A stretch of DNA of 64,000 nt from assembly GCA_026929865.2 (NCBI GenBank), contig CM049398.1:20435501-20499500 (forward strand). The letters run 5' to 3'. Shown one piece after another: positions 13,304-47,451 of this stretch. The position numbers and the translations under genes are program-made. Numbering within the stretch: the first letter of the stretch is position 1; each line of letters starts with the position of its first letter. Source of the DNA: Hyperoplus lanceolatus. Taxonomy: Eukaryota; Chordata; Actinopteri; Uranoscopiformes; Ammodytidae. Below the pieces are notes generated by a model that saw only the letters and a program-made list of their open reading frames with translations, did not search any database and was not told where the DNA came from.

Positions 13304-13306
<3 letters not shown>

Positions 13307-13314
13307 AGGTGTAA

Positions 13315-13350
13315 TACGTATCATCATGCGCAGACCAGAACACCTAACAC
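13315..13350 (+). promoter_or_regulatory. subterminal repeat unit, probable transposase binding site
   Basis: TACGTATCATCATGCGCAGA and the following ACCAGAACACCTAACAC match two direct repeats in the right end (47225-47258 and 47372-47407, opposite strand). Repeated subterminal motifs near a terminus commonly bind the cognate transposase. Function is inferred, not shown. Confidence 0.5.
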
Positions 13351-13436
13351 TCCTACACGCCTTAACGTGTAAAACATTCTATTTTAACAGTTAAAGCATT
13401 ATATCTCAACGGTTTTAACACGTTAAAGGCCTTTGC

Positions 13437-13676
13437 ACACCGGGCGCGACGCGAATAAACGCAACGTAAAAGCGAATGTTTTGAAATGTGAATTTTGTCG
13501 CGTCTCACTTTAAGAAGCGACGTCCCAGAAAAATCGAACTCAGTTTGAATAAATAAAAAACGCAAATTTGTGGTGCGAAATGACGGCGCTGGTGTGGAAG
13601 CTTGTATTGACTCTGTATACATTCGTTAATTAACGGATAAATCGCACGAATAAAACGCGCCCGGTGTGCAAAGGCC
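13437..13676. mobile_element. MITE 1, TTAA target (Kolobok/piggyBac-like)
   Basis: Termini AGGCCTTTGCACACCGGGCG and its complement ...CCGGTGTGCAAAGGCC. Flanked by TTAA at 13433-13436 and 13677-13680. The right end of the giant element keeps the unoccupied version (ACACGTTAAGGCGTG, complement of 47290-47305), which proves both boundaries and the TTAA duplication. The element is 240 bp with no coding capacity. TTAA targeting is shared by piggyBac and Kolobok transposons. The termini do not begin CCC, so Kolobok is possible. Confidence 0.9.
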
Positions 13677-14298
13677 TTAAGGCGTGTGTGGCATGTACGC
13701 GACCTGAGACGTATTACACAATGATCTGGTGCACAACACTAAACACGTACACGCCACACACGCCTTAAGCCCTTTTCACACCGGGTGCGTTTTATTCGTG
13801 CGATTTATCCGTTAATTAACGAATGTATACAGAGTAGGGGTGGAAAAAAAAATCGATTTTCCGATTAATATCGATTCTCTCTCGGACGATTCTGAATCGA
13901 TTCAGAAAAGTTAATAATCGATTTTTTTTTTTTTTTGTAAATACTAAAACTTCCTGCGCCATTGCGCATGCACACCACACATGTGCGAGTTGTTTCCAAA
14001 GTTGCTTCAAAAGGGCTGAGAGCAGCAAATCCATGACCTGCACCGGCTTTATCTCTGTTTACGTTTTTGTATGAGAGCTGAATTCCAAGCCATACTTTTT
14101 GTACAATGTGTTGAAATGACATAGAAAATAATAGATAATAGAATAGAAATCCTATAGAAACATGATTTACGAGATTAGAAATAAAATAAAACTGAATCGG
14201 TTTAGTTTTTACATACTTCCATATTGTGTTGAAAGCTGCATTGATTATTGCACTGTTCATAGAAAGTCATATTTGTGACAAGAAAAGCTTTTCTCTTA

Positions 14299-17200
14299 CC
14301 CATTTATCCCAAATTTTTTCCAGACATGAAAATATCCAAATCATGTGCTATTGGTAACCCTTTGAAATAGTCTATCATTATTTTGGGAAATTTTCATGGA
14401 AAAATAGGTTAAAAAGTGTGTTTTATTGTCGGCCCAATTGTGACCGGTGGGATAATGTTATACTGATTTTTGTTTTTCTTGTTTCCAGTCATCAAATTTC
14501 TCATAGTTCAGCTCAATTATATCTGGGTTGGAATATAGAGCTTTGTTACTGGCAGTACCAGTTCAGCATGTATTAAAATATGCTAGTGTTCTTTATCACA
14601 TGTTAGTGTGACTGTTTCACATATGAAAAACATGAATCGACAAATGAAAGCAAAAACGAAAAGACACCCATCAGCATTAACATTATTATCTTAACATTTA
14701 TTAAAACATTCATATGGTAACTTTGTTGTAACATTTGACCTTGCACTTTTGTTTAATACTAGTAGTATTTTAGTGCATAATTCATTTTAACATTGTAATT
14801 GTAACATTTTAGTGCAACATTCACTGAACACTATGGAGTAGTCATATGCGTCTTTAAAACTAAACGGACCACTCAGAATAGAGGTAACTTGCATTCAAGT
14901 AGAAGCCTGCACTAAACAAAACTTTACTTACTGTACATAAAGGCCTCAGAACTAAGTGCATGTGCATCACAACTATGGTCATTGCTTGACTGATATGAAC
15001 TGACCTTTTCAAAAACCTCTTTTTGTCAACATTTCATCCTATAGTATGTTTTACTCCTTATTTCTTGCAGACTTTTCTATTTTTCTTTTATTGGCTTTTC
15101 TAGCCCTTTTTTTATCTATCCCGATCTCTTTTTCTACTGCCCATGGTAGGCCTTGAAACATTCAATGTGCAGTGGTGCTGTGCATTTTTCACATGCATAA
15201 GTAGTGCGTTTGTCACAATGACGACATCTCTGGAATCGATGCATGGTGTTGATTGGCCAGTGAGAAGTTTTGTCAAATCTTCCCTGATTTTCTACAGAAG
15301 CAGCCAGTAGAGACTTCCTTCCGTGGCTCAGTGGTTTTCTGCCAAACCTTTGCATAAGAGACTGTGCCACTGTACGTGAGAAGGTGAGCAGGTCAATGGT
15401 CCCTCCTATGACATCTCTGTAAAAGAGATGGCTGTTTGTTAGTGCACTGCTGAGGGACCATGCAAAGATGGGCCACCACCATTTTTTGGACCCGATCGAG
15501 ATGTGGTATCTTGAAACCTGTAGATCGTGAAGGTCAACCCCACCCATATGCTCATTGTATTGGTTGATGCATTTTGGCTGTTTGACTGTGTCAAATGCAC
15601 GCCGCTGCTTGTTCCATCTCTTTACAGAGGTCTCACTGTATTTATCTTCCATGTTTGTCCCCACTGTGACAATGTTGTTGTCTTTCCAACGGACCAACAG
15701 CTTCTCTTCCTCAGTCAGGACTTCAGATGTTCCCCGGGGGAATTTCATGAATTTTTTCTGTGATGTGAATGGGACATCAAACAGACGATTTTGTCTCATT
15801 GTTCCACAGCTCCCATACCCTCTTTTTGTCATTTCACCGAGGAGTGCAAGCGAAGTGAAGAGGTTGTCATGGAAGAATTTGCAACCTTGAGGCACTTCAG
15901 CCTGCTCTGCAAGGCCAAGAACTACGCTGGGTCCCTGACCTAACCCAGTCTCAGGAAGGAGGGTGTGGGAACCACCATATGGCTCCATGTGATGCATGTA
16001 ACCACTCGATGAGGCAAGGCTCCATAGCTTGTAACCAAAACGGATTGGTTTACCTTTTATGAATTGCTTACATCCATGTCGGCCATAGTATGGGACCATA
16101 CTTTCATCCACTGACAGCCATTCCTGAAATGGCATGATTTTATATGACTGATTGAGCTCAGCAAAGATGGGCCTGACTTTAAAAAATGGATCATCAGTGA
16201 TTTGAGTGTTATCAACCACATGAACTGATGCCATTATTTCATCAAAGCGATTTCTTCGCATTGTATCGGAAATGCTTTCATTGTGTACATCATTGTCAAG
16301 TGACCAGTACATGTGTCTTCTTGGGACAGAGCTGTACCCAGATGTGATCAGTATTCCATAGAATGTTAAGAGTTTATCCATTGTTAGACTCAGTTGCTTG
16401 ACCTTGGTCTGGGTGGAGTAGAGGTTGGACATTTCAAGGGTTAGCTCTCTAAGGGTGGGTGGATACATTAGTAGGAAAACATCCATTGGGCTGGGGCAGT
16501 TTTGTTTAACACATTCTGCAGCATTTGGGCTGTATACTGTGTGTTTTGGAATACCTGCTGTGACAGGCCTCTTAGATCGTTTGAAGGTTCGGTTTTTATT
16601 TTTGACCACTTGCAACTTGGTCCTTGGCTCGTCTGTCTGCACCCTGTCTGTCTGGTGGGTAGATGAACATGGCTCTTCAGAATCAACAGGAGGTGGAAGT
16701 GGGGTAGTGGTGAGGAGGGAGTTATCATCACTGATAACATCTGTTTCATTATTTCTTTGCATAAGTTCAGCACTTGCGTTTAGCAGCCTAGCGGGCAAAT
16801 GGCCTGTCTCACCCTCAAAGTCCATGTCTGACCCATCACTGTCACAGTCACTGACGACAGCGTCTTTCTCACTTTGAGGGACAACTGTAATGTTGCATGC
16901 CTTGTCTGAAGGGTCCACAAGGTCCAACATACAGAGAATTTCATTCAAAGTTAAGCTAAAAGGAAGAACAGAGTAGAAAGTTAGCTAGCTAGCTACACTG
17001 TGTTATCCCACCGGTCACTATTGTTGCCATCAACAACTTTACTCATGCTGTGACCATACTGAACATAGTAGAGTTAAGGTAAATAGACCTGTCAATACTA
17101 GACACCTTGAAGATGATGTGTACCAAAAATATTTGTCTCATCTTTATGTTAACCCTCTTTACTGACCTCTTTTGTTGGTGCTTTGATGCAGCCATCCTCC

Positions 17201-17405
17201 TCGGATGGTGCAACCAGGAAGTAATCAGCTCTGATCATGTGACAATTTACACTAAACATATGAAACTGCACAAATGTGTTTGGGAGTTTTTTTAACATCA
17301 GTATTTTCTGGAAATAGGTTGATTCTCCATTCAGTAACATTTTTAGGACCTTTAAACTGGAAATGTTTTTTACGGTCACTTTTGTGACCGATGGGATTAA
17401 ATGGG
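14299..17405 (-). mobile_element. piggyBac element with intact transposase
   Basis: Termini CCCATTTATCCCA at the left and, read inward from the right, CCCATTTAATCCCA. Starting with CCC is the piggyBac hallmark. The right flank is TTAA (17406-17409). The left flank reads CTTA at 14295-14298, so one copy of the TTAA duplication has mutated. Subterminal copies of TGTGACCGGTGGGATAA occur near 14442, near 17003 (inverted) and near 17380-17395, candidate transposase-binding repeats. The element is about 3.1 kb and carries one long uninterrupted transposase gene on the minus strand. Confidence 0.85.
15134..16948 (-). CDS. piggyBac transposase (PGBD-like), 604 codons, apparently intact
   Basis: One uninterrupted frame from ATG at 16948 to the stop at 15134. 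Residues 1-130 are acidic and disordered, typical of the family N-terminus. The catalytic core (DDE_Tnp_1_7 type) shows the expected ordered motifs. EWLSVDESMVPYYGR holds the first Asp, CKFFHDNLFTSLALL the second, and NEHMGGVDLHDLQVSRY the third. The C-terminus has a cysteine-rich zinc-binding domain (CRHCDKRTTYACEKC, then HIECF), which in this family binds the terminal repeats. Length is normal for the family (about 560-650). The enzyme excises DNA precisely and reinserts it at TTAA. No stop, frameshift or missing catalytic residue was seen, in contrast to every other transposase here, so it may be active or recently active. Domesticated PGBD genes are an alternative, but the flanking termini argue for a transposon copy. 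Confidence 0.92.
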   Translation of the reverse strand: MNEILCMLDLVDPSDKACNITVVPQSEKDAVVSDCDSDGSDMDFEGETGHLPARLLNASAELMQRNNETDVISDDNSLLTTTPLPPPVDSEEPCSSTHQTDRVQTDEPRTKLQVVKNKNRTFKRSKRPVTAGIPKHTVYSPNAAECVKQNCPSPMDVFLLMYPPTLRELTLEMSNLYSTQTKVKQLSLTMDKLLTFYGILITSGYSSVPRRHMYWSLDNDVHNESISDTMRRNRFDEIMASVHVVDNTQITDDPFFKVRPIFAELNQSYKIMPFQEWLSVDESMVPYYGRHGCKQFIKGKPIRFGYKLWSLASSSGYMHHMEPYGGSHTLLPETGLGQGPSVVLGLAEQAEVPQGCKFFHDNLFTSLALLGEMTKRGYGSCGTMRQNRLFDVPFTSQKKFMKFPRGTSEVLTEEEKLLVRWKDNNIVTVGTNMEDKYSETSVKRWNKQRRAFDTVKQPKCINQYNEHMGGVDLHDLQVSRYHISIGSKKWWWPIFAWSLSSALTNSHLFYRDVIGGTIDLLTFSRTVAQSLMQRFGRKPLSHGRKSLLAASVENQGRFDKTSHWPINTMHRFQRCRHCDKRTTYACEKCTAPLHIECFKAYHGQ

Positions 17406-18029
17406 TTAATACAATATTAGAGAAGGCAATTCATCTGTTGATTGTCTTTAATGATCATCACAAAAGTAGGAAGTGATTAGCAAACTCAGATGTGCATATA
17501 AATATATTTTTGAAATTCACACATGGGTATGTACATAAAAAATGTTTTGCATTGAGATGTATTGAAAATCGATTTTGAATCGAATCGTTGACCTCTGAAT
17601 CGGAATCGAATCGTGAGGTGCCAAGAGATTCCCACCCCTAATACAGAGTCAATACAAGCTTCCACACCAGCGCCGTCATTTCGCACCGCGAATTTGCGTT
17701 TTTTATTTTTTCGAACTGAGTTCGATTTTTCTGGGACGTCGCTTCTTAAAGTGAGACGAGACAAAATTCACATTTCAAAACATTCGCTTTTACGTTGCGT
17801 TTATTCGCGTCGCGCCCGGTGTGCAAAGGCCTTTAACATCTAACCCTTTTTTTTTATTTTTTATTTTTTTTTCGTTAGTCCACGATTTCTGTAGGCTAAC
17901 AGAAAATAAGCGGAGCTACTTTTATAACGCCTGCCAGGACCGGGTAGGGTTTAATAAATAGCAGCTGCTTCAACATCTCTATCCGTCTGATACTATGTCC
18001 ATGGGCTGATAACCGGGGCCGTCATCTGG

Positions 18030-18081
18030 ATTCACGGACACGGACACAGTGCCGTCAGATGTGAAAACCCAAAGGAAAATT
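18030..18081 (+). promoter_or_regulatory. first-exon-like segment ending in a splice donor, left end
   Basis: A GTAAGT donor begins at 18082, after AAAACCCAAAGGAAAATT. The right end of the giant element has the counterpart on the minus strand, CAAGGAAACTGTGAACT followed by GTAAGT at 47114. Conservation of a donor at both ends suggests that each end can start a spliced transcript directed inward. The transcription start is not defined by sequence. Confidence 0.4.
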
Positions 18082-18695
18082 GTAAGTATCCTATTGCTTT
18101 CTAATGTGTTCAAACTTTATTTCAATGATGAAAAGCAACGTGTGGTTAATATTGTAAGGCAGCATAGCTAAACCACTAGCTAACAATTCATAGCAGCTAT
18201 TCTTCGTTAGCGTCCTTTTTTTGTTGGACAAACCATTTCATGTGGAATTTGGTAACATCTAATGGTGTTAATAATTAACTGTAAACCTAAAATAGTAAGG
18301 CTGACCAATGAATCCTCCCGTTAATCAGTTAAAACAATAATTTGGCTAGCCGGGATTCAATGTTTACATGTGTCGATCCCAGTTGAAGTAAATTCCTGCC
18401 TTTATAGTGGCTAATGAAGTTCCAATTGAACAAATGTGAGCCCATATTCTGCTTAGCACGTCTCACAGTCAACAGACATGTAGCTTTTCTAAATAAAAAC
18501 CCGTAGTAGTGTGTGTGTGTGTGTGTTAAAATATGTCATGACATGATAACCCCATGAAGATAATTAATTGCAGGAATGTTATAATAGACTGCATTAGATT
18601 TATTTATTGAATAAAATAAAGTTATAAGTGTGTTACAAATAGGTCATTTTACTCATATGTTCAGCTTTTGAACTGCATAATCTGCTTTTCCACAG

Positions 18696-18838
18696 ACTCA
18701 TCTTCGCTGTTGTGCATTTCAAACATTATGGCAGATGAGAGGAAGCTTATGACGGATATAAAAGCAAGAGGCAAGATCAAGGCCTGTGTAGAGAAAAAAG
18801 CAACTTTCTTTGTATACCAAAGATACAATGTTTCCTAA
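18696..18838 (+). CDS. candidate second exon of a plus-strand transcript, 36-codon frame
   Basis: A polypyrimidine stretch and CTTTTCCACAG (acceptor ending 18695) precede ACTCATC and then ATG at 18728. The frame reads MADERKLMTDIKARGKIK and ends at TAA 18838. It lies about 600 bp downstream of the GTAAGT donor at 18082. The product is short, basic and not recognised. It could be the start of a truncated gene whose later exons were lost when insertions piled up to the right, or a chance open frame. It converges on the minus-strand HECT gene. Confidence 0.3.
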
Positions 18839-19203
18839 ACATTTAAGGCAACTTAACCATAGCTTTTTAAAGGAATTGAGAGTGGTTGAACAGTGGTAGA
18901 ATTCTTATTGTTTTCTCCCTTTAATTTAAAAAAATTTAAAAAGGTGAAATTTTTTAATTTTTATTATATATATTTTTTTTTTTTTTTTTATAAAAAAAAT
19001 AAATTTAATTTTAAAGATAAAAAGGCCATCTATAACAATTAAAAAAAAAATTACCAAAAAAAAATATTAGAAATATTATTATTAACAATAAAGAACAAGT
19101 ATTAAAACAAGTGCCAAAATTAAACAATGCAAGAACAGTAGGCATACTCATCAATGGTTGATACAGGGCTGTACAGTGCGACAGTTTTGATGAATACAAG
19201 TCT

Positions 19204-20259
19204 CAGTGTTTCCCACAGAATTTTTTGAAAGTGTGTGGGGGGGGGACCCCCCGGGAGAAAATGTTGTACCTTTTAAATGTTAAATGCATCAATCTGGTGT
19301 ACTTTGAGGAACACTATTCCTATATAAATGGTGATTAAGATGGAGTTTGAATAATGAATAAATAATTCTCTATGATACACATTTGAGCCATCAAAAAAAT
19401 TAAGCAAAGGTGGTGGTTACCTGTGGTTCAAAAGAGTGAACACAAGCGCCCTTTTGTTTTATTAGATTGTTGAATTACTAGTACTCAAATAACTGGGACT
19501 ACAATCACGAAAGGATAGCTCACAATATTCTTTCCAGCAGAGGGTGCTCTGCTGGAAAGGCAGCAGGCGCGCAAATTACCCACTCCCGACTCGGGGAGGT
19601 AGTGACGAAAAATATCAATACAGGACTCTTTCGAGGCCCTGTAATTGGAATGAGTACACTTTAAATCCTTTAACGAGGATCCATTGGGGGGCAAGTCTGG
19701 TGCCAGCAGCCGCGGTAATTCCAGCTCCAATAGCGTATCTTAAAGTTGCTGCAGTTAAGCTGGTAGTTGGATCTCGGGATCGAGCTGACGGTCCGCCGCG
19801 AGGCGAGCTACCGTCTGTCCCAGCCCCTGCCTCTCGGCGCCCCCTCGATGCTCTTAACTGAGTGTCCCGCGGGGTCCGAAGCGTTTACTTTGAAAAAATT
19901 AGAGTGTTCAAAGGCAATACAGTCACAGCGCGTGTTGACACCGCAGGGGGAGGGGCTGATTGACTCGGGGAGATTGAAGCCTCGATCCCTCAAGCGGCGC
20001 TTTGATAATACGTCCATGATTGAAGGAAATATTGTTTCTTGAGATCACAGCGCGAATCACACGTTAAAGATTTTTATGCGGAAATGCTATTGTTTCCAAG
20101 TGAAACTCGCGCATTGCAAATGAAATGTATAGGCCTACATGTATATTTTTTAAATAGTAAAATATACATATATCAAAAAAAAAAAAAAATGAAAATGTGG
20201 CGGGGCAAAATGAAAGTGTGGCGGCCCGCCACGGAATGATACATTAGTGGGAAACGCTG
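19204..20259 (+). mobile_element. 18S-rRNA-carrying hAT-type non-autonomous element, copy 1
   Basis: Termini CAGTGTTTCCCAC at the left and GTGGGAAACGCTG at the right. The flanking direct repeat AAGTCT (6 bp) lies at 19198-19203 and 20260-20265. An inverted sibling at 24690-26664 shares the entire layout, with a 5-bp ACTGT flank. Short 5-6 bp duplications with CAGTG termini recall the hAT5/hAT6 subgroups. The interior holds about 350 nt of 18S rRNA gene in sense orientation, plus a GC-richer unidentified segment at 19912-20040. There is no transposase. Confidence 0.85.
19556..19911 (+). pseudogene. 18S rRNA fragment captured inside a transposon
   Basis: The text matches the conserved central part of eukaryotic 18S rRNA, from GGCAGCAGGCGCGCAAATTA through the 530-loop GTGCCAGCAGCCGCGGTAAT to AAATTAGAGTGTTCAAAG. 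Only about 356 of some 1850 nt are present, so it is not a functional rRNA gene. It has local differences from the canonical sequence, for example GTTAAGCTGGTAGTTGG where 18S has GTTAAAAAGCTCGTAGTTGG. The second copy differs elsewhere, so both are decayed copies of one capture. Confidence 0.93.
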
Positions 20260-22883
20260 AAGTCTACTCGCACGAATGTGATAGGAGATGAGGAGATAGG
20301 CCTACTATCTCATTTAGACACAGAGAGAGGAGTGATGCACAACACTACTTAGAAGGCTCTACATTAACACACGCCACAAGCTGGTAAATGGCTATTTATT
20401 CATAGGCAATTAAGTAGCCTAGTTGAGTCCACCCGCCACTTTGGCTGGTGAAAGACGTGTGCTCGGGATTCTGTGCTTGTGCGGCGATTCTAGTGTCTAA
20501 GGGGCACTTTACACGGCCACGTGAAACGGTGCATACGCAGAAATATTCCCGCGGATCCACTATATCATTTACATGAACACAGCAAACGCAGGCATGAAAC
20601 CGCAGGTTTTTGAGATCACCTCCCAGGGAGGATTTTTTGGAAAACTTTACGGTTTTGGTTTCTTGTAAACACCGAAACCATGTCCCCTGGTAACGCTGAC
20701 GTTACGGCTCCACCCTCACACATGCGTAGTATATAACATTTGCTGTCAAAACACCCACAAGCGAGTTATAAAGTTAGAAGACAAAATGAACGGTGTCTCC
20801 ACGGCACCATCACTGTGATCAGCGGAGAGTGATGTGCAGGGCTAAAATGTAGGCTATCACTCGCCAATTTAGTCCAAGCGATTACCGCAGTAAGTTATTG
20901 AGACCACCCGCCACTTTGGCTGGGGAAAGAGTTGTGCTCTGCCTGTTTTTCTAGCTAAATAAACGTGTGTCACTTCTATATGCCAGGGACACGGCTCTCT
21001 CTACATTTAAAAAACACTATCAGCGTGCAGCGGTTAACTTAGGCTACTGTTCAACAAAAGGAGCATTAAGGCTACGGCTTCACAGTAATAGCATTTCACT
21101 GGCTAAACATTAATAGCATTTCACTGGACACAAAACTGGAAAACTGTCACGTTAGTTAGTGCCCCTAATAAACTTCACCAACGGTAAAAAACGGAAGGAC
21201 ACGGCTCTCTACATTAACGCAGTCAAGTTAGCGCATGTGCAAACCGAACATTTCCTGTGCCCCTTCACATTAAAGGCATGTTTCTAGCCAAACGTGAGTT
21301 TACTTTTATAAAAGCCGATAAGAACAGGAAATTAGCGATCAAGAGCCCCACAGTGCTCTAGCTTGAAAGGCAACTGAAAAAATTCACAACAAACTATTTA
21401 ATTGATCCTAAATTGTACAAATATGTATATTAGTTCATAGGCTATGTCCAATGGTTTAAAGTTTGGTTTTAATTAAAAGGAAATGTTCTAAAAATGATTG
21501 TTATTAATAAATAATGGAAATAATTCTGAATCAGCAAAAATTGCTATTGGCAGGTTAAATCTTTTGTCTATATTGCAATCATTGCACCCCTATTCATTTT
21601 TCTACAATTATAACTGAACAATAGGATATAATATTGATTGAGAATCTCACATGAGACCAAGATAATATGCTCAAAGGTAATTAGAGTGAAATGCAAGGGT
21701 TAGGGTTATGCAGGGTTATGCTTCAATCATACTTTGTGTGCTACAAAAAAAAATTGTGCAACTGAATTTTTTTGCTTGCTAGCACCAGTGCTACCACTTT
21801 AAAAAATAAGCGTACAGCCCTGGGTTGATAGCTTACATGTTTTCATTAAACAAGGCCAAACCCTGTATAGCATGTATTAATTGCAGCAAATAAGTCTTTT
21901 TTTTTTTTTTTTTTCGAAATCATCATATGATTTGTAGTGGACAGGCAACTTGATGGTTTCGAAGCACGTCATGGCCCTTGGATGAGTGCCAAAGGCCACC
22001 TTCACGATCAGCTCCTTGGGCGGAAGCTCCCAACTGACCCAGAACTGAAGAAGTGTTTTTAGTTGATCTGAACAGGCTGTAAAAAAATATTAAAAAGTAA
22101 GTAAAAACCTCCGAAACACCCATATACTTCACACACTTATAGGGGAAGCTATGTTTAAAATACACACCTTGTTCAATAAAGTTTCTGAGGTAGCCAGTGA
22201 CCTCAGAAATGGCCTCAATAGTGACGTCGTCATCCTCATCGTCAGAATCATAATTTGCAGGTGTGGGCCATGTTATTTGTGGAAGGATCATCTACAAACA
22301 CAGGGCATAGTCTCACGACTTATTCATACTTAGGAACAATAATAGGAGAGTAAGTATTTCAGAAGAGTATTTATAATAGCTTTTGATGAATGATGAACAT
22401 AAATAAATCTTTACCTGGGGTGTGATCTGTGCCTCTTTCTGTGTAGGGAAAAGGAGCTGTTTCACATCCGGTCTTCCTGAAAGAAGTGGCCAAATTCCAG
22501 TGTCCTTAAGTCTCCTTCTTAACTGCTTTATTTGCCTTGAAGCTCTCCCCAGAACCTGTATAAAACAGCATTGCACGTCTGGTTAAAAGATAACACCAAT
22601 ATTATTAAGATCACCAAATTATGTCAATCTAAAATGTGTTTTTACAGTATACCGCATGTATGAGCAGCTTCTCTTGTAGCCACTTCACGTTGGTGGTAGT
22701 TGGAGTGGGAAGATCCCAAGCCAAACAAAGGTTGGTGACACAGTCGAGCTGTTCACCTTTCAGTTCAGTATGCTCGGTCAACTTCAGATGGATAGGAAAT
22801 AAGAGGCAGGAACAAAGAGTACAGTGAAAGAAAAACTAATGAATTAATGTCACACAGGTTCTAATATATCCCAGTTAAACTTA

Positions 22884-23037
22884 CGTGCTGAATTGTATCT
22901 CGTATGTCCAAATCCGGACAGTCTTCAATTGTCACTGTGGCAGTGTCAATAAGGCCACCACGTGCTGAATTGTATCTCGTATGTCCAAATCCGGACAGTC
23001 TTCAATTGTCACTGTGGCAGTGTCAATAAGGCCACCA
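22884..23037. repeat. 77-bp tandem duplication inside the HECT domain exon
   Basis: 22884-22960 and 22961-23037 are identical. The unit covers the end of exon 13 up to the splice donor base. Because 77 is not a multiple of three, it shifts the reading frame if both copies are retained. Confidence 0.95.
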
Positions 23038-25032
23038 CAGACAACATGTGAAATGGCAGGGCTCAGACCAGGGAACGCAGGACCACCATAAAGTAGACAA
23101 TGCCCCATCATTTGCCCTGCCATCAGGAATAGCTCACTCTCAATCATGACAGCTGAGTTGGCAGGGACCAAGTGGTCTGTTTGACCCTCGAAGATCTTTG
23201 TGATTGGACCGTTTCCTGGTTAAATCATACATTGATAATCACTTAGAATTTTCACCCTCCGCATTTCTAATTTGAAATTTTAGAGAACAAGTGTGGTATA
23301 AGAACTTACCAAGATTTATTTGAAATCCCGTCCTTAGCTTCATCATGATTGATGACATGACATGTTGGTTGACGCCAAGACCTACAGCAGCATCACCTAT
23401 GGGTAAGATAGAAATAATAGCATTAACAATTTTCTAATTTAAAAACAGATTTATTTTCTTAAAAAATTGAAAGACCAAAAGTACCCCAAGTTTTTTTAAA
23501 TTTACCACATTAAAAAACATACACTTCACCTTCAAGCCGGCATGTTAGTGGAGACGCCCACTCGACATTGCTGCGCTTGTAAAAGGTCATATAAGACCTG
23601 TCCTGCTCTTCCTGGTCTTTCCTCAAGTCCACGCTAAATCTGCTCTCTTCAGAACTGTTGTTCCTGTGCAGGAGCTCTTTCGTAAATATCCAGACAGCTC
23701 TTGTCGGATCTGCAGCAGTCCTCCAATCTAAAAGGGAAAAAAACATTTTCTGTAGTTAGTGTGTAAACCTAGCATTTCACCCAAAATCAGGAATAAAAAA
23801 AATGCAAATGTAGGGGTAAGTAGAAGGGATATAGTGGGACATGTTCCAAAAAGGAGAAAAAGATTTAGGTGGAAAAAATTAAAGAGGAATAAAGCTACCT
23901 CACCTTCCTCTGAGCCATTCACCGCGGTGCCAGCCGAAGTGCCAGCAGAAGTGCCACTGAGTGCAGGCAAGATTGTTGTGATGCCTTGCAGGGAGGAGGA
24001 GGGGTGGATAAGGGGATCTGGGTTGATAGGGGGATCTGTATTGAAAAGTGGATCTGGATGGAGGAAGAGTGGAGAAGTGGATCTGGGTGGAGGGGGGGAG
24101 CCGGGTGGAGAATTATCCTGGGTTTCCTGTAGTCATTTTTAATATTTATTTGATCAATTACAACTAAAAATAATGTATGAAGGCATATACTACTTTTAAT
24201 AATAAATATTACATTATATGTCACTTGTCATTGACATTACCATATCTGATGAGTTTTGCCATTGCGTGGCAGAGACTCTGAAAAATATCTACAAAGATAA
24301 AACATTTGCACTGTTATTTTCAATCCCCTAAAATACTATTTTAATACATAGAAATGTTGTGCTCATAGCAGTAGAAACTTATGCAAACTTAGCTTTTAAT
24401 GTAGCTCATTTAATGTTCTTAACAGGATTAATAATACTGTACACATTACATCGTGAGCCAGTACCTTGGCTTTTAGGACCAATGTTTATATAGTTGCACT
24501 TGTAATACTTAAAAAAAAAACTTACGTCTGGTGTACCGGCATTCACCCATTCTGCGTTGTCAAATTCCTCCTATTTGAGAATGACAATGAATTTCAAAAG
24601 AAGTCTATGGCAAAAGTGTATATTTTAAGATAAAACATTTAGGATCCTTACACAGTCAGGAGTTCCCTCAATGGTACCGGATGCACTGTCAGTGTTTCCC
24701 ACCAATGTATCATTCCGTGGCGGGCCGCCACACTTTCATTTTGCCCCGCCACACTTTCATTTATTTATTTTTTTGATATATGTATATTTTACTATTTAAA
24801 AAATATACATGTATACATTTCATTTGCAATGCGCGAGTTTCACTTGGAAACAATAGCATTTCCGCATAAAAATCTTTAACGTGTGATTCGCGCTGTGATC
24901 TCAAGAAACAATATTTCCTTCAATCATGGACGTATTATCAAAGCGCCGCTTGAGGGATCGAGGCTTCAATCTCCCCGAGTCAATCAGCCCCTCCCCCTGC
25001 GGTGTCAACACGCACTGTGACTGTATTGCCGT

Positions 25033-30661: not shown

Positions 30662-30822
30662 TATATAAAATATAAATGACATTTAAATAATGTTAAATAA
30701 AAAGTTACACAAAAATATTTGTCCTGTTTAAAATAAATACAAATCAAAAACACAAATATATTGTTTAAAACTATTTAGATAACCTTCACAAATAATGTAT
30801 TTGCATGTTGTTACATGTAAAT

Positions 30823-34679: not shown

Positions 34680-34719
34680 TTTTTGTTATTTTTGTGTATT
34701 TCTCACTCTTCTCTGCCTT

Positions 34720-38018: not shown

Positions 38019-40594
38019 CTAAAAAAGATAGGGGATGAGGGGTAGGGGGGATGGTGAGTTGTTTGTCAACAAAGCCTCAGCGAGGCTCAACGCCTCCATG
38101 TAAATGTCGACACCATACACTTCACTTCACTAGTTTTCCGTAGATGTGTCTCTATTGCATCCTGGAGAGAACTTGGATGTGCTGGAATCTCAACCGTATT
38201 CTCTGAATCTGGAGTGGGAAGGGGCCCATTCCAGTCAATGCCAAACATGTGGATGTCCTCCTGCTAACACACAATGTATAGGAGCCAAAAGAAAATAGTT
38301 GTCATTAACAACAGAAACACTGCCAGTGTACCAACATAACAATTATATGAATCCCCAAGGGTGAAACAAAAAAGATAGAATATGGCAATGTATTACATTG
38401 CAGTCATAAGGTTAAAATATGTATAGATTTCTCAATGGTTACAATGTGTGAGAATATATACACACAAAATCAAGTCATGAAGTGATTCAAAGCTGCGTTC
38501 ATGAAATACTAACACAATTGTTTAAAATGTTAAACAAAATTATGATTACATTTACCAGATCAAGATTATCTTGGTCACCCACAACCAGTCCTGCCACCCA
38601 CAGCTGCTGTGGAGACTTGTTGCCACTGGACGATAGTGGGTGTCCATCCCATGCCTGAATGAACATTTGCAGATGAAAGTTCAGCCTTTCCAGCATCACA
38701 TAGTGCAGACAGATGAGGTGGAGATCGCTGTTCGGATCAAGAGCTCCAATATCCTCCAGGTGTCTGAAGGCAGAGTAGTAACTAGCTACCACCACACACC
38801 ATAAGTCACGCCACAAACGTTCAATCCGTTGGTTATGGACAGACTTCCCAGTGATGTGGCTCCCTGAATTAAAAAAAAATAAAATTGGGTTCTTAATATA
38901 AAAATATATTGTCATTTTTTATTTGCTAGAAGGAAAATGTAATTATTGAATTATTTAAATTCAATATATCAGTGATTCTTGAGAAGTGGGACAAAACAGG
39001 GTGCAATGTTGAGAAAATACAAACCCTATGTTTCGGCAAATTAAATCACATGTATGTATCCAACATATACTAAGCTACTACCACCGTGATTAATAGGCTT
39101 AATTGCATATGAATGATTGAAACCTTCTCTGACACACTGTTTTGGATGCCGTGAGAAGATAACAAATATAATATATTTTTGACATAATAATGATACAATT
39201 TAATTTAATGGGATAATTGTGCTCCAGACATTCTATTCTTAATCCCTAATAACATCAACAATTTTAAATATTTTTAGTTTTAAACATACCAGCAGTTACA
39301 TATGGAAGACAGCCTTTTGTCCCGGTTCTCACGAATCACTGATATAGATGTTACTTACCAGGACCACGTTGGGGATGTTCCAACATGTACCTTGCCACTT
39401 CGATATTCTCTCCTTCCCTGTCGCTGCGTACACGCTGAGGCAAACTATGTTTGTGTACAGCCCCAAGAAAACACTGCAGAACAGTTGAAGCCCTGTTGTT
39501 GTTCCTGGCATGGACGTACATTACTTTCCTGCTGAAGCCATCAATCCCTCCATGAATGACTATTCCCCAGATGTACAGTGAGAGGAAAAAAATTAATACA
39601 GAGATGAATGAACCAAAATATTTATTAACTTGAATAACTACTTTCTATACTAAATATCAATCGGACATTTGGGACACTGCATGTAACAATATAAAAATAC
39701 CAATAAGATGGTCAAACTACATGTTCATGTCTTTAGGTGTAGCTAGTGCATCTTACTTCACCAGTTTGTGGTAGCCGTACATATGCCAGAGAGAGAGAGG
39801 AGCAGGAACAGAGTACGGCCGTCTGGGAATGACGTGTAGACTTGTGTGTAGTCCACGCAGCACAACACCAACTGGATCAACAGCACGTATTGCCTCTCGG
39901 ATTCTGTGCTGCTGGACCCTTATATAGATGCGAATGTGTGATACAGCATAGATTAGACGTAACACATAAATGAGAAATACCACAAATAGTGACAGGATCC
40001 TATACCACCACGACCCACAGCATTTACAAAAATACTTTTAAACTGTTTCAGTGCTTACCTGAGACCAAGTGATATAAGATATCCTGTGATTACTTTATTT
40101 CCAGTGTTTGGGCAATTGGCGATGAAGCCTGACACTAGCTGCGTCAATTGTTCATCAGTAATGTCAGTGTAAGTCTGGCGCATCGATAGTCCATACCGTG
40201 TTAGTCTGCGTCTTATTGTGATTATACTTACACCATACAATCTTGCTATTTCAGGCACCTTGAATCTTTGCTCGATGAGAAATAGCAGTTGTTCTTCCGT
40301 GATAAACTCCAATGGCTCGTTATTCACAATTGGCACATGTGTGGTGTTTAATATTTCCAAGGCCGCATACAGTTTGGAAAATATCTCGGATTCGTTCTTC
40401 AGGTTCCCTGCAGCTGCCAATATAGATAGTATGTGAATGATGCTTTGTAGGCGAAAGTAATAATGTTCGAAGTCAAGACCCTCTGACTGAGTAAGTTGTC
40501 CACTTAATGTATTCAACAATTCGGTGATATTCTCCAAAACCTCTTGCGGAATTGCAACTTGGTGACTGCAGAAATAACGACAAATGACAAGCAA
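38019..40594 (-). pseudogene. integrase-type (rve/DDE, IS3EU-like) transposase, five exons, disrupted
   Basis: Exons: 40565 (or ATG 40594)-40059, 39918-39757, about 39568-39359, 38863-38556, 38260-38019. Exon 1 encodes a helical N-terminus and a helix-turn-helix with KVPEIARLYGVSIITIRRRL. Exon 2 ends RPYSVPAPLSLWHMYGYHKL; the family has HIDGNHKL here, so the first catalytic Asp appears replaced by Tyr. Exon 3 has VIHGGIDGFSRKVMYVHA, then a frameshift into LPQRVRSDREGENIEVARYM, holding the second Asp. Exon 4 has SVHNQRIERLWRD with the catalytic Glu and the LEDIGALDP...ALHYV-like helices. Exon 5 has DIHMFGIDWNGPLP, then a further frameshift before VDIYMEALSLAEAL. Splice phases join cleanly for exons 1-2, 3-4 and 4-5. 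Intact enzymes of this fold cut and join the element ends. The loss of one catalytic residue and two frameshifts make it inactive. Confidence 0.87.
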
Positions 40595-40811
40595 ACAATT
40601 AGGCTACTGTACAGATGGACAAATGGCCACATATCACAATAAATAAGGGATAGTCATCAGGGGTGGGGGGCTGATTAAAGTCTAAAGCCTATTTTTCACT
40701 GTAAACCTCCAGGTTTTTTTTAATGACTTCAGTGTAATTCTATAAATTAGAGAAAATCAGGAAACAAAGTGGACTTTGAACAACTCTTACCAAAATTAAT
40801 ATATATATATA

Positions 40812-41929
40812 GGGGAAGGTGGGGTGATTTGTGCAACTTTTTACTCAAAGTGATTTTAAAGTGAGGCCTTGACAGTTATGTCTCCAACTCAAATATGTAC
40901 ATATATTTCAGGATGTTGTGCATCCCTGGCAATAAAAACTTTGGATCTGGAATAAACTGTTTAAGAAATATAGCTTTCGGAAAAAAAGTTGTCTTGACGC
41001 ACAAATCACCTCACTACGTGGGGTGATTTGTGCGTCATTGTGTCACAATGACAAAGTCACCATCATCATCTTTCTGGCCATCTGAACTCTCATCAGTGGT
41101 GTCGTTAAGTGGAATTGAGATGTCACTCTCTTCTGAGCTACTGTAGACAATCACTTTCTTTTGGTGACCAGCGTATACAGCCATGCCACTGGCACAACTC
41201 TCAGAAATGTACTTTGCACTAGTTGCTCCGTGCTTGTGGAACCAACTGCCACCTGACAAATGTGATTCCCCCTACATTTCTGCCTTTAAATCAAGGCTCA
41301 AACCCTTGTAACCCATATGTACACCCTGGTGTTTCCTCCCCATTAACTATCTTACCTCTGCACTACTATCTGTGTTTATGTGGATGTATGGGCTTTACGT
41401 CTTTTATTTTGGTTATTGTTATTGTACCTTCATTGTTTACCTACTGAATGCACTATGTACAGCACTTTGGACAGTGCAAACTGTCATAAATGTGCTTTTA
41501 TAAATACATTTTACTTACTTACTTACTTATAACTCACCCAGGCCCTTGCGCACAAATCACCCCATCCCCAGAATGTTGGATAATAGGCATGATGCAGCAA
41601 TTTAGGGTTGACATTGTGCTAACTATATAGACTCAAAGTGTAGCATACCAAAGCACTAAAACATGTGTCAAATGTTTTCAAACGTGTCTATAATTGTTCA
41701 GACACAATAATCAAAAAACCTTGATCATGGAAATTTTACTTTGAAAGGCAAAACACAGTTTTTTGAGCTTAAATGTGCTTATATCTTATTCCTTGTGTCT
41801 CCCTTCTTTACAGGATGAGTCAAATGGATGGCTCTTCTTAAATATGTGGTCACATTTCCAATTTCTTCCACGGTTTTCTAGAAACAAGGGGTTTTGCAAC
41901 TTCCAAAACGCACAAATCACCCCACCTTC

Positions 41930-41932: not shown

Positions 41933-41964
<32 letters not shown>

Positions 41965-42454
41965 AATTTAAAACATGCACATATTTAGAATCATTGAAAA
42001 TATATAAAATAAAGCTTGTAGGCTAGTAGCCTATAGATTCAAGATTCAAGATGGTTTTATTGTCATATGCACAACAATTACAGAGCAGTCGCACTGTAAT
42101 TGGGCTCTGTTGGGCTCCTCCAACAGTGCAATAAAGAAAGCGTAAGACTTAAATAATAAAAACAACAACAACAACAATAATAATAATAATAATAATAAGA
42201 AGAATTATGTGTATAAGAGGAATAAATATAAAATGTAAACAGACGTGTTTATCCAGATATAAAGTGGCAAGTTAAAAAGTGTCACTGTGGTGAGCTAAGT
42301 AGCTCAGGAGTTCAGCAGTCTTATTGCCTGTGGGATGAAACTGTCCCTGAGTCTGGTGGTGTGAGACCCTATGCAGCGCTGAGTGTAGAGGTCCTCCATG
42401 GATGGCAGCTCCGTCCTGGTAATGTGCTGGGCAGCTTTCACCACCCTCTGTAAT

Positions 42455-42933
42455 TGTTACGCGCTCCCACCTTTCTGCTCCTCTTGTTCCTCCACACTCT
42501 CTCTCTCCCAGGTGTCCTAAGGCCTGATTGGCGGCAGGTGCTCCTTTGGGGCTTAAAGGGGTGGCTTGTCTCGGTCTCTGACTGATGGCGGACGGCTCGG
42601 CTGGTGACCTGCGGCGTTTTCCTGTTGTTTCTTTAGTGTTATGGTTTAGTTAATGGGGGGCTGCTAGGTGGTGTTATTTTACTTTGATCGTAGTTTTAGA
42701 GGGGCAGGGGTATAGGTTAGTTGGAGGAAGACCTGGGCAATAACGTAGTCCAACTGTGGCTGCCCAAGGCTTCCTCCCTTTTACCCTTTTTCTTTTGCAG
42801 CCTCCGGATTGAGTTGAGTTGTGGGATTGGTTTAATAAATTACCTTATGGTTTAAACGTTGATTCATGGTTTCATTGTGGTTCATTTCATGTTTACTGGC
42901 CGGTTAACAAGCCTGGTATGGCCGGGAGTAACA
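42455..42933 (-). mobile_element. solo LTR (479 bp)
   Basis: Begins TGTTACGCGCTCCC and ends GGGAGTAACA, with the canonical TG...CA ends. The perfect 5-bp duplication GTAAT lies at 42450-42454 and 42934-42938. AATAAA occurs near 42834, so transcription is more likely on the plus strand; I leave orientation open. The internal region has been lost, presumably by recombination between two LTRs. Probably Ty3/gypsy-like, by length and target size only. Confidence 0.88.
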
Positions 42934-43552
42934 GTAATGTCTTATGGTTGAGGGCGGAGCAACTGCCGTACCAGGCGTGATGCAGCCAGTCAGGATACTC
43001 TCTATGGTGCACCTGTAGAAGTTGCAGAGTATCCTGGAGTCCATGTTGAACCTCCTCAGCCTGCGGAGGGAGAAGAGCCGCAGTCTTGCCGTCTTTGTGA
43101 TGGCGTCAGTGTGGTGAGTCCAGGTCAGGTCCTCGCAGATGTGGACCCCGAGGAACTTGAAGCTGCTGACTCTCTCTACCGTTGATGCTGATGGGGGCGT
43201 GCTGAGGTTGAGATGGAGGTTGTTGTCCTGGCACCAAGATGTCAGGGCTCTCACCTCCTCTCTGTACTCTGTCTCATCGCCGTCGGTGATCAGGCCGATG
43301 ACGGTCGTGTCGTCAGCAAACTTAATGATGGTGTTGGAGCTGTGTGTGGCCACGCAGTCATGTGTGAACAGGGAGTAGAGGAGAGGGCTGAGCGCAGCAA
43401 TGGGGTGCACCGGTGTTGAGAGTCAGGGTGGATGATGTGGCGCCTCCTATCCGCACTGCCTGGGATCTGCCCGTCAGGAAGCTCAGGATCCAGTCACAAA
43501 GGGCGGTGTTGAGCCCGAGGTCCCTGAGCTTCACAGCGAGCTTGGAGGGCAC
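42904..43552 (-). pseudogene. LINE reverse transcriptase fragment
   Basis: Two overlapping frames. The first contains LRDLGLNTALCDWILSFLTG. The second contains LSPLLYSLFTHDC, NTIIKFADDTTVIGLI (the F-A-D-D catalytic motif) and VERVSSFKFLGVHICEDLTW, then SLRRLRRFNM and FYRCTIESILTGCI. A frameshift lies near 43400. A short internal deletion follows NNLHLNLS: the usual K-T-K-E segment is missing. Endonuclease and upstream fingers are absent. Confidence 0.85.
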
Positions 43553-43655
43553 AATGGTCCTATAGGCATACTGTTTTCAAAATAATAAAAATTATTATTT
43601 TTATAATAATTGTTTTGCGCCACAGTTCAGCTTAGACTCGGCCATAATGCTGCTG

Positions 43656-43688
43656 CACACACACGCACACACACACACACACACAGGC
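43656..43688. repeat. (CA)n microsatellite
   Basis: Interrupted CA run of about 16 units. Confidence 0.9.
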
Positions 43689-44538
43689 ACACACTGCATG
43701 TCAGAGACGAGGGGCGCTACCAAAAAGACGAGAGGACATTCATTGCAGGCGGAAGTACATGCTCCGCTCTGATTTCACCCCGTTCACCCAAGGCTGTATT
43801 AAAAGTACATGGTTCCTAAATGTTGGTAATCAACAAGGTGGTAAAGCAGTTACTTCGGGCACAGCTGTCAACAACACTGATTTCCTCTTAGTTAAACCTA
43901 TGACTGACTATATTCTTCATTCAGTGTGCATAAGGGGTAGCCTACATGTTTAGTCTATTTTTCTCAGTTATTTGTGTAGGGTAATGAAGGGCAGAGTTTG
44001 CAACTGAAATGTGAATTAGCATACAGAAATAAAATACAATCAGCTGGTTTTCAGTAGACAGCTGTCAGTTCGGCCGCGGAGCATTGAATGTATAAAGATC
44101 ATCAAGATGTTGACAGATGTGCCCGTACTGCGACACTGGTAACGCGTTACTGATTAGGATAGGAACAACCCTAACCCTGTAAATATGTGATAAACTAAGG
44201 TCCAAAATGTTTATATTTTATGAGTTATAACATTTCTGTAATAGGCTACGGCCTCTTTTGTGTTCCTATCTCAACCACTAGCTAGGCTTTATTCGCATCT
44301 ATACTCCTCCTCTCGTAAAACAGATATAATCGATAAAACTATTATAATCTTTACAATAAAATAACCCCACACCGATGACAGGTAATTTATTTAATCAAGG
44401 TTGGATGGACACCTACCTCGTCATCTTAATTCAAAGCAAGTCCATTGACGTAGCGGGCTCAGGGCACTATGATAGAAAGTTAGCAACGATTATTTTATTT
44501 TCCCGCTTTTGATCATTGTTTGACCAACGATCATTCTA
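43689..44538. other. giant-element core, non-coding
   Basis: No gene recognised. Its right edge holds the first of three tandem units described at 44497-46240. Confidence 0.35.
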
Positions 44539-46131
44539 CACTCAACAAAAATATAAACGCAACACTTTTGTTTTTGCTCCCATTTTTCATGAGATGGACT
44601 TAAAGATCTAAAATTCATTCCAGATACACAATATTACCATTTCTCTCAAACATTGTTCACAAATCTGTCTAAATGTGTGATAGTGAGCACTTCTGCTTTG
44701 CTGAGATAATCCATCCCACCTCACAGGTGTGCCACATCAAGATGCTGATCTGACATCATGATTAGTGCACAGGTGTGCCTTAGACTGTCCACAATAAAAG
44801 GCCACTCTGAAATGTGCATTTTTTTTGCTTTATTGGGGGTCTGGGGACTCAGAACCAGTCAGTATCTGGTGTGACCACCATTTGCCTCATGCAGTGCAAC
44901 ACATCTTCTTCGCATAGAGTTTATCAGATTGTCAAATGTGGCCTGTGGAATGTTGGTCCACTCCTCTTCAATGGCTGTGCGAAGTTGCTGGATATTAGTG
45001 GGAAGTGGCAAGCACATCCCAAACATGCTCAATGGGTGACATCTCCGGTGAGTATGCTGGCCATGCAAGAACTGGGACATTTTCAGCTTCCAAGAATTGT
45101 GTAAAGATCCTTGCAACATGGGGCCGTGCATTATCTTGCTGAAACGTGAGGTGATGTTCATGGATGTATGGCACAACAATGGGCCTCAGGATATCATCAC
45201 GGTATCTCTGTGCATTCAAAATGCCATCAATAAAATGCACCTGTGTTCTTCGTCCATAACAGATGCCTGCCCATACCATAACCCCACCACCACCATGGGC
45301 CACTCGATCCACAACATTGACATCAGCAAAGCGCTCACCCACACGACGCCACACACGCTGTCTGCCATCTGCCCTGAACAATGTAAACCGAGATTCATCT
45401 GTGAAGAGAACACCTCTCCAACGTGCCAGACGCCATCGAATGTGAGCATTTGCCCACTCAAGTCTGTTACGGCGATGAGCTGGAGTCAGGTCAAGACCCC
45501 GATGAGGACGACGAGCATGCAGTTGAGCTTCCCTGAGACGGTTTCTGACAGTTTGTGCAGAAATTGTTTGGTTATGCAAACCAATTGTTTCAGCAGCTGT
45601 CTCAGTGGCTGGTCTCAGACGATCTTGGAGGTGAACCTGCTGGATGTGGAGGTCCTGGGCTGGTGTGGTTACACGTGGTCTGCGGTTGTGAGGCCGGTTG
45701 GATGTACTGCCATATTCTCTGAAACGCCTTTGGAGACGGCTTATGGTGGAGAAATGAACATTCAATGCACGAGCAACAGATCTGGTTGACATGCCAATGC
45801 ACGCTCCCTCAATGCTTGTGGCATCTGTGGCATTTTGCTGTGAGACAAAACTGCACATTTCAGGGTGGCCTTTTATTGTGGACAGTCTAAGGCACACCTG
45901 TGCACTAATCATGATGTCAGATCAGCATCTTGATGTGGCACACCTGTGAGGTGGGATGGATTATCTCAGCAAAGCAAAAGTGCTCACTATCACACATTTA
46001 GACAGATTTGTGAACAATGTTTGAGGGAAATGATAATATTGTGTATCTGGAATGAATTTTAGATCTTTAAGTCCATCTCATGAAAAATGGGAGCAAAAAC
46101 AAAAGTGTTGCGTTTATATTTTTGTTGAGTG
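44539..46131 (-). mobile_element. nearly complete Tc1 transposon
   Basis: Inverted termini CACTCAACAAAAATATAAAC and complement, flanked by TA (44537-44538, 46132-46133). Terminal inverted repeats extend about 270-280 bp (44539-44817 and 45852-46131). One transposase gene on the minus strand. Confidence 0.95.
44859..45912 (-). pseudogene. Tc1 transposase with one small deletion
   Basis: The paired-like DNA-binding region contains MSTRSVARALNVHFSTISRL and TAAETIGLHNQTISAQTVRN. The catalytic core has LFTDESRFTLFRADGR (Asp), LTFQQDNARPHVARI (Asp) and AYSPEMSPIEHVWDVL (Glu). Just after HVWDVL, near 45000, about 20 nt are missing relative to the family. The frame shifts, and the last 50 residues (PTNIQQLRTAIEEEW, then MRRRCVALHEANGGH) lie in another frame ending at 44859. 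All three catalytic residues are intact. The exact start is uncertain because the open frame extends into the terminal repeat. Confidence 0.92.
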
Positions 46132-46248
46132 TATTTTCCCGCTTTAGATATTTATCATTGTTTGATCAACGATCATTCTATTTTTAAATTGTATTTTCCC
46201 CTTTATTTAGGCTATCATTGTTTGAGCAACGATTTGACAGGAGTAAAA

Positions 46249-46600
46249 GTCAATTGGTTTACTTGTTATTACAAGACACATTCAAAATGTACAGTAATAT
46301 TTTTAATTTGTACTTAGTACAAGACACATGCTAAATGTACAGTAAAGTGTCACAACATTTATTAAAAACACATACTTATTTCAACACTATTAAATTAAAA
46401 CTGCTTCCAAAATTACTTAATTAAACTAATACATTTGAGGAATTAAAACAAAATATTTCATTGTTGAAATAAATGTGTTTTTAATAAATGTTGTGACACT
46501 TTACTGTACATATTGTATGTCTTTTGTACAAATTAAAAATGTTACTGTACATTTTGCATGTGTCTTGTAATAACAAGTAAACCATTTTTCAATTAACTGT
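46249..46600. mobile_element. long-hairpin MITE
   Basis: Imperfect inverted arms of about 135 bp: 46249-46385 starts CAATTGGTTTACTTGTTATT, and 46463-46600 ends with its near complement AATAACAAGTAAACC. The loop is about 77 bp. No coding capacity. Boundaries and duplication are uncertain. Confidence 0.65.
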
Positions 46601-47224
46601 ACATTTCTTGGGGAAGACATGAACTATTTATTTAGTAATTAAACTTGCGAACAAGTTAACTACTTTATTTTACAGAACAGTAGGCTAAGAAGGCAATAAA
46701 ACTGAATTGGAATAGTTTTGTAATTCCATATAGGCTTATGTGAGGATTTACTAAATGTATATGGTCAACCTTTTAATGTAATATTATATATAAAAACAAA
46801 AAATAACTTTATTACACATGGTCCACGTATTATCACTATACTTGTAGTGACAGTGTTGTTTAACTGATTACCGGAAGGATTCATTTGTCATCCTTCCTAT
46901 TTTAAGTTTACAGTTAATAATTAACATCCTTTGACATTACCAAATGCCTTATAAAATGGTTAATCCAACAAAAAAGGATGCTTACGAACATTAGCCGTTA
47001 TGAATTGTTAGCTAGTGGGTTAGCTATGCTGCCTTACAATTCGAACCTTCCCGTTACTTCCCATCATTCATATGATTATGCCGACTAATTTGGAAGTTAA
47101 AATACAAGACTTACAGTTCACAGTTTCCTTGGGGTTGAATATCAGACCGCTCCGTGTCCTTATTATAGGTCTGTGTCTCCGTGACCGTAACTCCAAACGC
47201 TTCAGACGTTAACACGTGTAGACG

Positions 47225-47258
47225 TGTGAGGCGTTCTGGTCTGCGCATGGTGATACGT
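47225..47258 (-). promoter_or_regulatory. subterminal repeat unit (inner)
   Basis: GGCGTTCTGGTCTGCGCATG followed by GTGATACGTA, a near-exact repeat of the outer unit at 47372-47407, about 147 bp apart. Probable transposase-binding site by analogy; not demonstrated. Confidence 0.5.
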
Positions 47259-47371
47259 AAAATACGTATCAGGTCGCGTACATGCCACACACGCCTTAAC
47301 GTGTTAAAACCGTTGAGATATAATGCTTTAACCGTTAAAATAGAATGTTTTACACGTTAAGGCGTGTAGGA

Positions 47372-47407
47372 GTGTTAGGCGTTCTGGTCTGCGCATGATG
47401 ATACGTA
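47372..47407 (-). promoter_or_regulatory. subterminal repeat unit (outer)
   Basis: GTGTTAGGCGTTCTGGTCTG then CGCATGATGATACGTA, ending 11 bp from the terminus. Matches the left-end unit at 13315-13350. Confidence 0.5.
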
Positions 47408-47415
47408 TTACACCT

Positions 47416-47417
<2 letters not shown>

Positions 47418-47451
<34 letters not shown>
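47418..47451. repeat. (TG)n tract flanking the right end of the giant element
   Basis: About 16 TG units directly outside the right terminus, on the same strand as the tract outside the left terminus. Confidence 0.9.

Follow-up and report, generated by a model that had tools for sequence, protein, structure and literature searches.

A probable IS3EU/GingerRoot-like transposon with a HECT ubiquitin-ligase gene, inserted in a (TG)n microsatellite of the fish Hyperoplus lanceolatus

In a 64,000-nucleotide stretch of the Hyperoplus lanceolatus genome (C4:20435501-20499500, hereafter the window), two long inverted ends lie in a (TG)n microsatellite and enclose both a relic of an integrase-type transposase and a multi-exon gene for a HECT E3 ubiquitin-ligase-like protein (Table 1). 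We regard it as very likely that this is a single cut-and-paste transposon of the IS3EU/GingerRoot type with the HECT gene as cargo, which was inserted once into the (TG)n tract and was then hit by about ten other transposons. The ends are paired and sit in a target tract, the same terminal base recurs at six other loci, both genes lie inside, and the two genes are recurrently linked elsewhere in the genome. A first-pass annotation of the window had described a giant element of about 34 kb; the size did not hold, since at most 19 kb is left in the window once later insertions are removed, and an intact-looking relative on C12 measures 12.1 kb.

The two ends match each other in inverted orientation over the terminal ~560 bp on the right, when the two TTAA-flanked inserts in the left end (13427-13676 and 13769-17836) are passed over. 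Identity is 121/123 at the tips (13304-13426 vs. 47418-47296), 38/39 for 13677-13715 vs. 47299-47261, and 83% over 211 positions for 18124-18333 vs. 47068-46859, which bears out the ~600 bp of end homology noted earlier. TG stands on the plus strand outside both ends (13239-13303 and 47418-47450), also as first described. Because the ends are inverted, a tract owned by the element would need TG at the left and CA at the right, which the window tract does not have. Across the copies, the terminus lies one base further out (TATGAGG...CCTCATA); the left end in the window has the terminal T (13303), and the right end has G in place of A. The window flanks are compatible with a target-site duplication (TSD) of any even length inside the repeat. 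Further inward, 17833-18787 is found in copies on C4, C8 and C18 at 92-96%, and 18823-19050 in the C4 copy at 81%. A short open stretch, MADERKLMTDIKARGKIKACVEKK..., was also seen by eye on the plus strand just inside the left end (18720-18830), where a plus-strand gene, since lost, may have had its first coding exon.

Other copies of the end were sought in the same 806.7-Mb assembly (527 contigs) with the first 133 bases of the left end, which gave 16 matches, and 20 tiles of 10 kb around the matches were compared. Ends intact to the same base occur at seven loci, counting the window, with one or two such ends per locus and ten in total. Left out of this count were C14:3303098 (truncated, with a flank that is not TG), C18:4893203-4893273 (taken for the remainder of the C18 end, beyond an insert of 3.6 kb), inner repeats and further pieces of the same ends. 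All ten intact ends adjoin TG/CA-rich sequence, with flank scores between 11 and 23 out of 23 steps; the C18 left end (11) and C1 (12) score lowest. As background, 2.6% of 37,691 windows reach 10 and 1.3% reach 12; they were taken from the window and the fetched loci themselves, and the comparison is hence conservative. The flanks differ among the seven loci, showing that these are separate insertions. A T precedes ATGAGG at 9/10 intact ends, the exception being the right end of the window, and TATGAGG...CCTCATA is present at both ends of C4:15188980-15193075 and C18:4889861-4896926. These are also the only two copies with a measurable duplication, which is 7 bp in both and lies in low-complexity flanks (GCGTGTG at C4, ACGCGTG at C18). 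The flanks suggest that the subfamily of the window element favours TG/CA microsatellites.

It could be argued that the TG tract was not selected as a target, i.e., that the tract grew from the element end or that a small sample misleads. Only seven loci are available, duplications are hard to measure within simple repeats, and the C12 relative described below has no TG flank; the copy at C2 has a CA tract inside its end as well. However, a tract owned by the end would read alike inward at both ends, whereas in the window and in C4 it reads TG inward from one side and CA from the opposite side. In addition, every intact end scores at least 11 although few background windows reach even 10, and the search tool passes over simple repeats, so that the sample of ends was not selected for TG. 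We therefore think it improbable that the tract is anything but the target. The C2 copy (C2:34519870) comprises only ~32 bp of end with the CA tract on its inner side too, and is perhaps a product of slippage or of an abortive insertion.

The small copies on C4, C8 and C18 bear on whether the two window ends belong together. On C18, parts of the window right end (46244-46825, in pieces) and left end (17881-18781) stand in one small copy, and the same holds on C8 (46249-46825, in pieces, and 17833-18787), where the right tip is missing. The copy at C4:15188980-15193075 has, in this order, a left end, 18823-19050, 21187-21693, 43035-44538 and an inverted end, i.e., the order of the window; its inverted end is similar to either end in the window. 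Some ~160 bp separate segment 21187-21693 from the HECT gene at its 3′ end, and a weaker match (72%) to 21170-21806 was found ~15 kb inside the C1 end. We read the three small copies as internal deletion derivatives of an element that had both window ends. The alternative is that solo ends or small copies inserted twice, independently of each other, and flank unrelated DNA with a host HECT gene in it, so that no single element exists. The gene-free state of the other fetched copies of the subfamily would fit this alternative, but the TG on the plus strand outside two oppositely oriented ends, the joint occurrence of left and right parts on C18 and C8, the conserved order on C4 and the HECT-transposase linkage at other loci all argue against it, and we consider the chance that it is correct to be small. 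The earlier proposal of one insertion into one microsatellite is thus supported: the ends occur jointly in small copies, the tract has the orientation of a target, and it is not part of the repeat.

The transposase relic is assigned by Pfam to PF24764 (integrase core, E 4e-70), while rve (E 1e-4) falls below the cut-off. Up to E 1, Pfam returned only rva_4 and, below cut-off, rve, HTH_23 and Sigma70_r4_2, and thus no HHCC domain ahead of the core, as in IS3EU/GingerRoot. In a 13-sequence alignment, the window has Tyr at position 216, the first catalytic Asp, where all 12 relatives have Asp; D273 and E309 are retained, and the surrounding stretch is missing or altered in the relative P0022. The last exon has a frame slip near 38130. 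With the first Asp replaced by Tyr and this frame slip, the window copy is probably not autonomous today. A protein search gave 1447 relatives, and those named among the best 120 of the 1447 are mainly from fish and corals, with sponges and a priapulid also present. A Protein Data Bank search with the transposase alignment gave a single marginal match (8vd6_A, E 0.005). No viral relatives were found in two viral-contig scans, one with the window transposase and one with the HECT relative P0121.

The second gene was modelled with 15 exons, whose phases agree and which encode 867 residues without a stop. The HECT domain (PF00632) scores 26.5 bits against a cut-off of 23.9, with only the C-terminal part of the profile covered. 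The motif TCFETIKLP is identical to that of P0121 and P0124, and we take its Cys to be the predicted catalytic residue. Exon 11 contains a perfect 77-bp tandem duplication (22883-23038), a frame slip in an A run precedes the last ~16 residues with the usual ...TGFGLV tail in another frame, and P0125 suggests an additional zinc-finger exon near 28067-27978, outside the 15-exon model. A protein search, which scored the 8000 candidates sharing most words, gave 15 relatives, of which 14 carry PF00632; the best is 67% identical over 46% of the query, and G2E3-like HECT genes are present in many fish. The transposase relic and large multi-exon gene that had been seen inside the ends are therefore confirmed, and the gene is ubiquitin-ligase-like as first described; such cargo is not a one-off.

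Searches of the own genome placed 74 transposase matches in 53 clusters, and 33 matches to the HECT part in 10. A transposase cluster lies within 15 kb of 7 of the 10 HECT clusters, or 6/9 without the window; with an expectation of 0.23% per locus under an even spread, the binomial p value is 1.2e-14, ignoring transposon clustering. At 20 kb, 7/10 are linked, as at 15 kb, and at 10 kb 5/9 of the other HECT clusters are linked (p 9e-10 was computed for 4/9). The clearest of the six other linked loci (C12, C7, C4:38.2 Mb, C6, C14 and C19) is the 12,148-bp element at C12:5240424-5252571, which starts ATATTTATG and whose arms, identical at 1028/1028 positions, enclose a complete HECT gene (5242359-5247093, plus strand) and a transposase (5250483-5248171, minus strand) with D, D and E all present. 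An arm search, in which 40 of 3158 first-look candidates were scored, listed 78 matches including the element's own two; 61 begin at arm base 1, and several form back-to-back pairs of ~840 bp. The arm is thus an exact unit, and a large family of miniature inverted-repeat transposable elements (MITEs) is suggested. Outside the own genome, one of six long proteins found with the window transposase, P0137 of Triplophysa tibetana, is a single gene model with both PF24764 and PF00632. Its HECT part aligns with that of the window in two stretches, 79 and 103 residues long, at only ~24% identity. Another fusion model from this species, P0022, has a transposase and, behind it, a segment that shares 52% identity with the P0137 HECT part; the two gene models are on different contigs.

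One may ask whether the HECT gene is ordinary host gene-family DNA near which transposons tend to insert. G2E3-like genes in many fish, the three HECT clusters without a nearby transposase and the lack of an end pair at C7 and C4:38.2 Mb would agree with a host gene, whereas the perfect C12 ends around a complete HECT gene and the transposase, the enrichment of HECT clusters near the transposase and the equal-scoring HECT copies on C7 and C16 would not, and we judge this alternative improbable. The HECT exon matches in the latter copies (C7:1872936-1875022 and C16:30470699-30472784) score equally and are spaced equally, suggesting that the two chromosomes carry recent copies of a single gene. 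As a separate observation, the nearest other transposase locus, C1:41.83 Mb (70-78%), has the N-terminal transposase exon twice in tandem (41.8277-41.8293 Mb, 1216-2769 of a 3-kb piece), and no HECT match was found in those 3 kb.

Several observations weigh against a single element with HECT cargo, and we note them together. First, the linkage p value disregards transposon clustering and the 15-kb limit was picked after the distances had been seen; three of the 10 HECT clusters (C10, C16 and C14:3400743) stand without a nearby transposase. Second, end pairs were sought at three of the linked loci, C12, C7 and C4:38.2 Mb, and one around both genes was found at C12 only, with none at C7:1856500-1882499 or C4:38244000-38269999; a C14 end of the C12 type points away from the HECT gene. 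Third, neither TSD nor TG flank is visible at the C12 element, so that TG targeting would be a property of the window's branch rather than one shown for the whole group. Fourth, the genes are convergent in C12, C6, C7 and C4:38.2 Mb, unlike the window, where both are on one strand, as they are in P0137 and P0022 by gene model. C19 has them on the same strand with HECT first, and C14 is mixed with a C12-type end between; either the gene order was reshuffled or uptake happened more than once. Fifth, the anticipated copies ending at the same base were found at six other loci, but tblastn with both proteins in the 20 tiles around the other ends found neither gene, and the interior of the subfamily thus rests on position and on end-proximal segments.

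Returning to the single element, much of its 34 kb is due to later insertions, and the element proper is far below that size. Ten nested inserts could be placed, though not every one at both borders; together they take up 14,796 of 34,117 bp, so that 19,321 bp remain. Because several of the borders are only those of open reading frames (ORFs), the core is at most ~19 kb; the at least eleven insertions and ~15-kb core of the first-pass annotation are possible but not shown. The C4 copy is without both TTAA-flanked inserts, and its matches on either side overlap at each site by TTAA only (four bases). Window ORFs were listed (45) and nine of them scanned with Pfam, tandem repeats were sought with TRF and RNAs with Rfam. 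An inversion of the HECT gene through the two inserts carrying 18S ribosomal RNA (rRNA) fragments was considered and ruled out, as the exons on either side of 24685-26665 are on one strand. Segments 40789-41887 and 3246-4185, inside and outside the element, are inverted copies (85-88%) of another repeat.

Table 1. Coordinates of window features and of intact end copies in the own genome
Feature	Position	Strand	Evidence or remark
(TG)n tract, left target flank	13239-13303	+	TRF; last T (13303) also readable as first base of element
Left terminal inverted repeat, outer part, starts ATGAGGTGTAATACG	13304-13426	+	Inverted match to right end
MITE-like insert, TTAA on both sides	13427-13676		Arm recurs inverted at 17641-17837; not in C4 copy
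Left end, continuation	13677-13768	+	Matches 47299-47261 and copies on C4, C8, C14, C18
Second TTAA-flanked insert	13769-17836		Not in copies on C4, C8, C14
piggyBac-like ORF in second TTAA insert	15134-16984	-	PF13843, E 2e-69
Left end, inner part	17837-19050	+	5′ exon-like stretch, GTAAGT at 18082 reading inward
MITE-like insert with 18S rRNA fragment	19203-20263	+	Rfam SSU_rRNA_eukarya RF01960; 6-bp duplication AAGTCT
Segment adjoining 3′ end of HECT gene	21187-21693		Retained in small C4 copy at 92%
HECT E3 ubiquitin-ligase-like gene, G2E3-like family of fish	21849-28839	-	15 modelled exons, 867 residues
Second copy of 18S-carrying insert, in HECT-gene intron	24685-26665	-	Rfam match
Nested element, inverted arms 29018-29596 / 30666-30086	29018-30666		ORF looks Tc1-like by eye
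Nested hAT-like transposase, two overlapping ORFs	32945-34685	-	First ORF scanned; Pfam matches below cut-off
IS3EU/GingerRoot-like transposase relic	38058-40565	-	Pfam PF24764, alignment, tblastn
Transposase exons	~40565-40059, 39918-39757, 39566-39359, 38863-38561, 38263-38058	-	Alignment and tblastn
Reverse-transcriptase fragment, LINE (long interspersed nuclear element)-like	42904-43576	-	RVT_1 below cut-off, ALKBH8_N above
Nested Tc1-like element	44537-46134		Arms 98% identical; also adjoins other copies
Right terminal inverted repeat	46859-47418	-	5′ exon-like stretch, running inward on the minus strand, with GTAAGT at 47114
(TG)n tract, right target flank	47419-47450	+	TRF
Loci with two intact ends	Window; C4:15188980/15193075; C18:4889861/4896926		Own-genome search
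Loci with one intact end	C12:18471428; C1:19444151; C8:2822509; C2:34519870		Own-genome search

A mechanism can be proposed for the element. The transposase would bind and pair the long ends, excise the element and insert it in TG/CA tracts, duplicating 7 bp. The ends may also act as promoters that supply a 5′ exon and a splice donor: both window ends contain a similar inward-pointing exon-like stretch that ends in GTAAGT, and the C12 arms contain an open frame with ATG ahead of GTGAGT, suggesting that each end probably starts a transcript. As for the HECT ligase, we infer its role as that of an accessory factor, which most likely would ubiquitinate a host or element protein; our best guess is that it would remove or mark a host silencing or repair factor, or control the level of the transposase.

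Microsatellite targeting is known from Waldo, Kibi and Koshi, which are non-LTR (long terminal repeat) retrotransposons, and from rice Micron, a TA-repeat MITE; the window element appears alike in this respect, but it is an integrase-type DNA transposon in TG/CA, and no open-access text was found to combine three of five microsatellite-targeting terms. IS3EU/GingerRoot is characterized by an integrase-type DDE transposase, TA..TA termini and a TSD of usually 6 bp (PMC10045372), IS3EU is recorded from fish (PMC12763893, PMC4746887), and fungal IS3EU is given ends TAYGG..CCRTA and possible cargo genes for a TET/JBP dioxygenase and an alpha-kinase (PMC12730594). The window element likewise has a DDE transposase of integrase type and, in its subfamily, TA..TA termini. 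It differs in the 7-bp duplication at the two measurable copies of its subfamily, in the HECT cargo and in the TG/CA target, and the C12 relative differs in its 1028-bp ends. By Pfam family and TA termini, we call the element IS3EU/GingerRoot-like, in keeping with the grouping first suggested; the name stops short of formal membership, as the TSD is 7 bp at the two copies where it can be measured. The words HECT and ubiquitin are absent from the main text of these four papers, and no report joining IS3EU with HECT was found among the open-access matches listed, Repbase entries lying outside the search. Teratorn, described in PMC6431247 as a large teleost mobile element with a DDE transposase, combines a piggyBac-like transposase with herpesvirus genes, whereas the window element's own transposase is of a different family, its piggyBac-like ORF sits in a separate TTAA insert and no viral family scored above cut-off in the nine ORFs scanned. 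In Cottus, blastx matches to G2E3 were recorded for candidate repeat elements that had no classification, in a passage that names no transposase, ends or superfamily (PMC5638112). The recurrence of a HECT gene as cargo and the targeting of TG are apparently new.

More broadly, it is possible, and to us an evenly balanced question, that the IS3EU-like transposons of teleosts are a standing two-gene system of transposase and HECT protein, started from exons in the long ends, in which one branch homes to TG/CA and two distant HECT types, those of the window and of Triplophysa P0137, were taken up or kept for a shared need. On this reading, many G2E3-like genes of fish would belong to transposons. 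If cut-and-paste elements recurrently carry a ubiquitin ligase, this would suggest that they manipulate host protein turnover, and an integrase-type transposase that prefers TG/CA would add an example of microsatellite targeting. The intact-looking C12 copy makes the link between HECT gene and transposase testable. For annotation, many fish gene models called G2E3-like may be transposon cargo, and if the two-gene system is real, fish genes annotated as G2/M-phase-specific E3 ligase-like would often be transposon genes.

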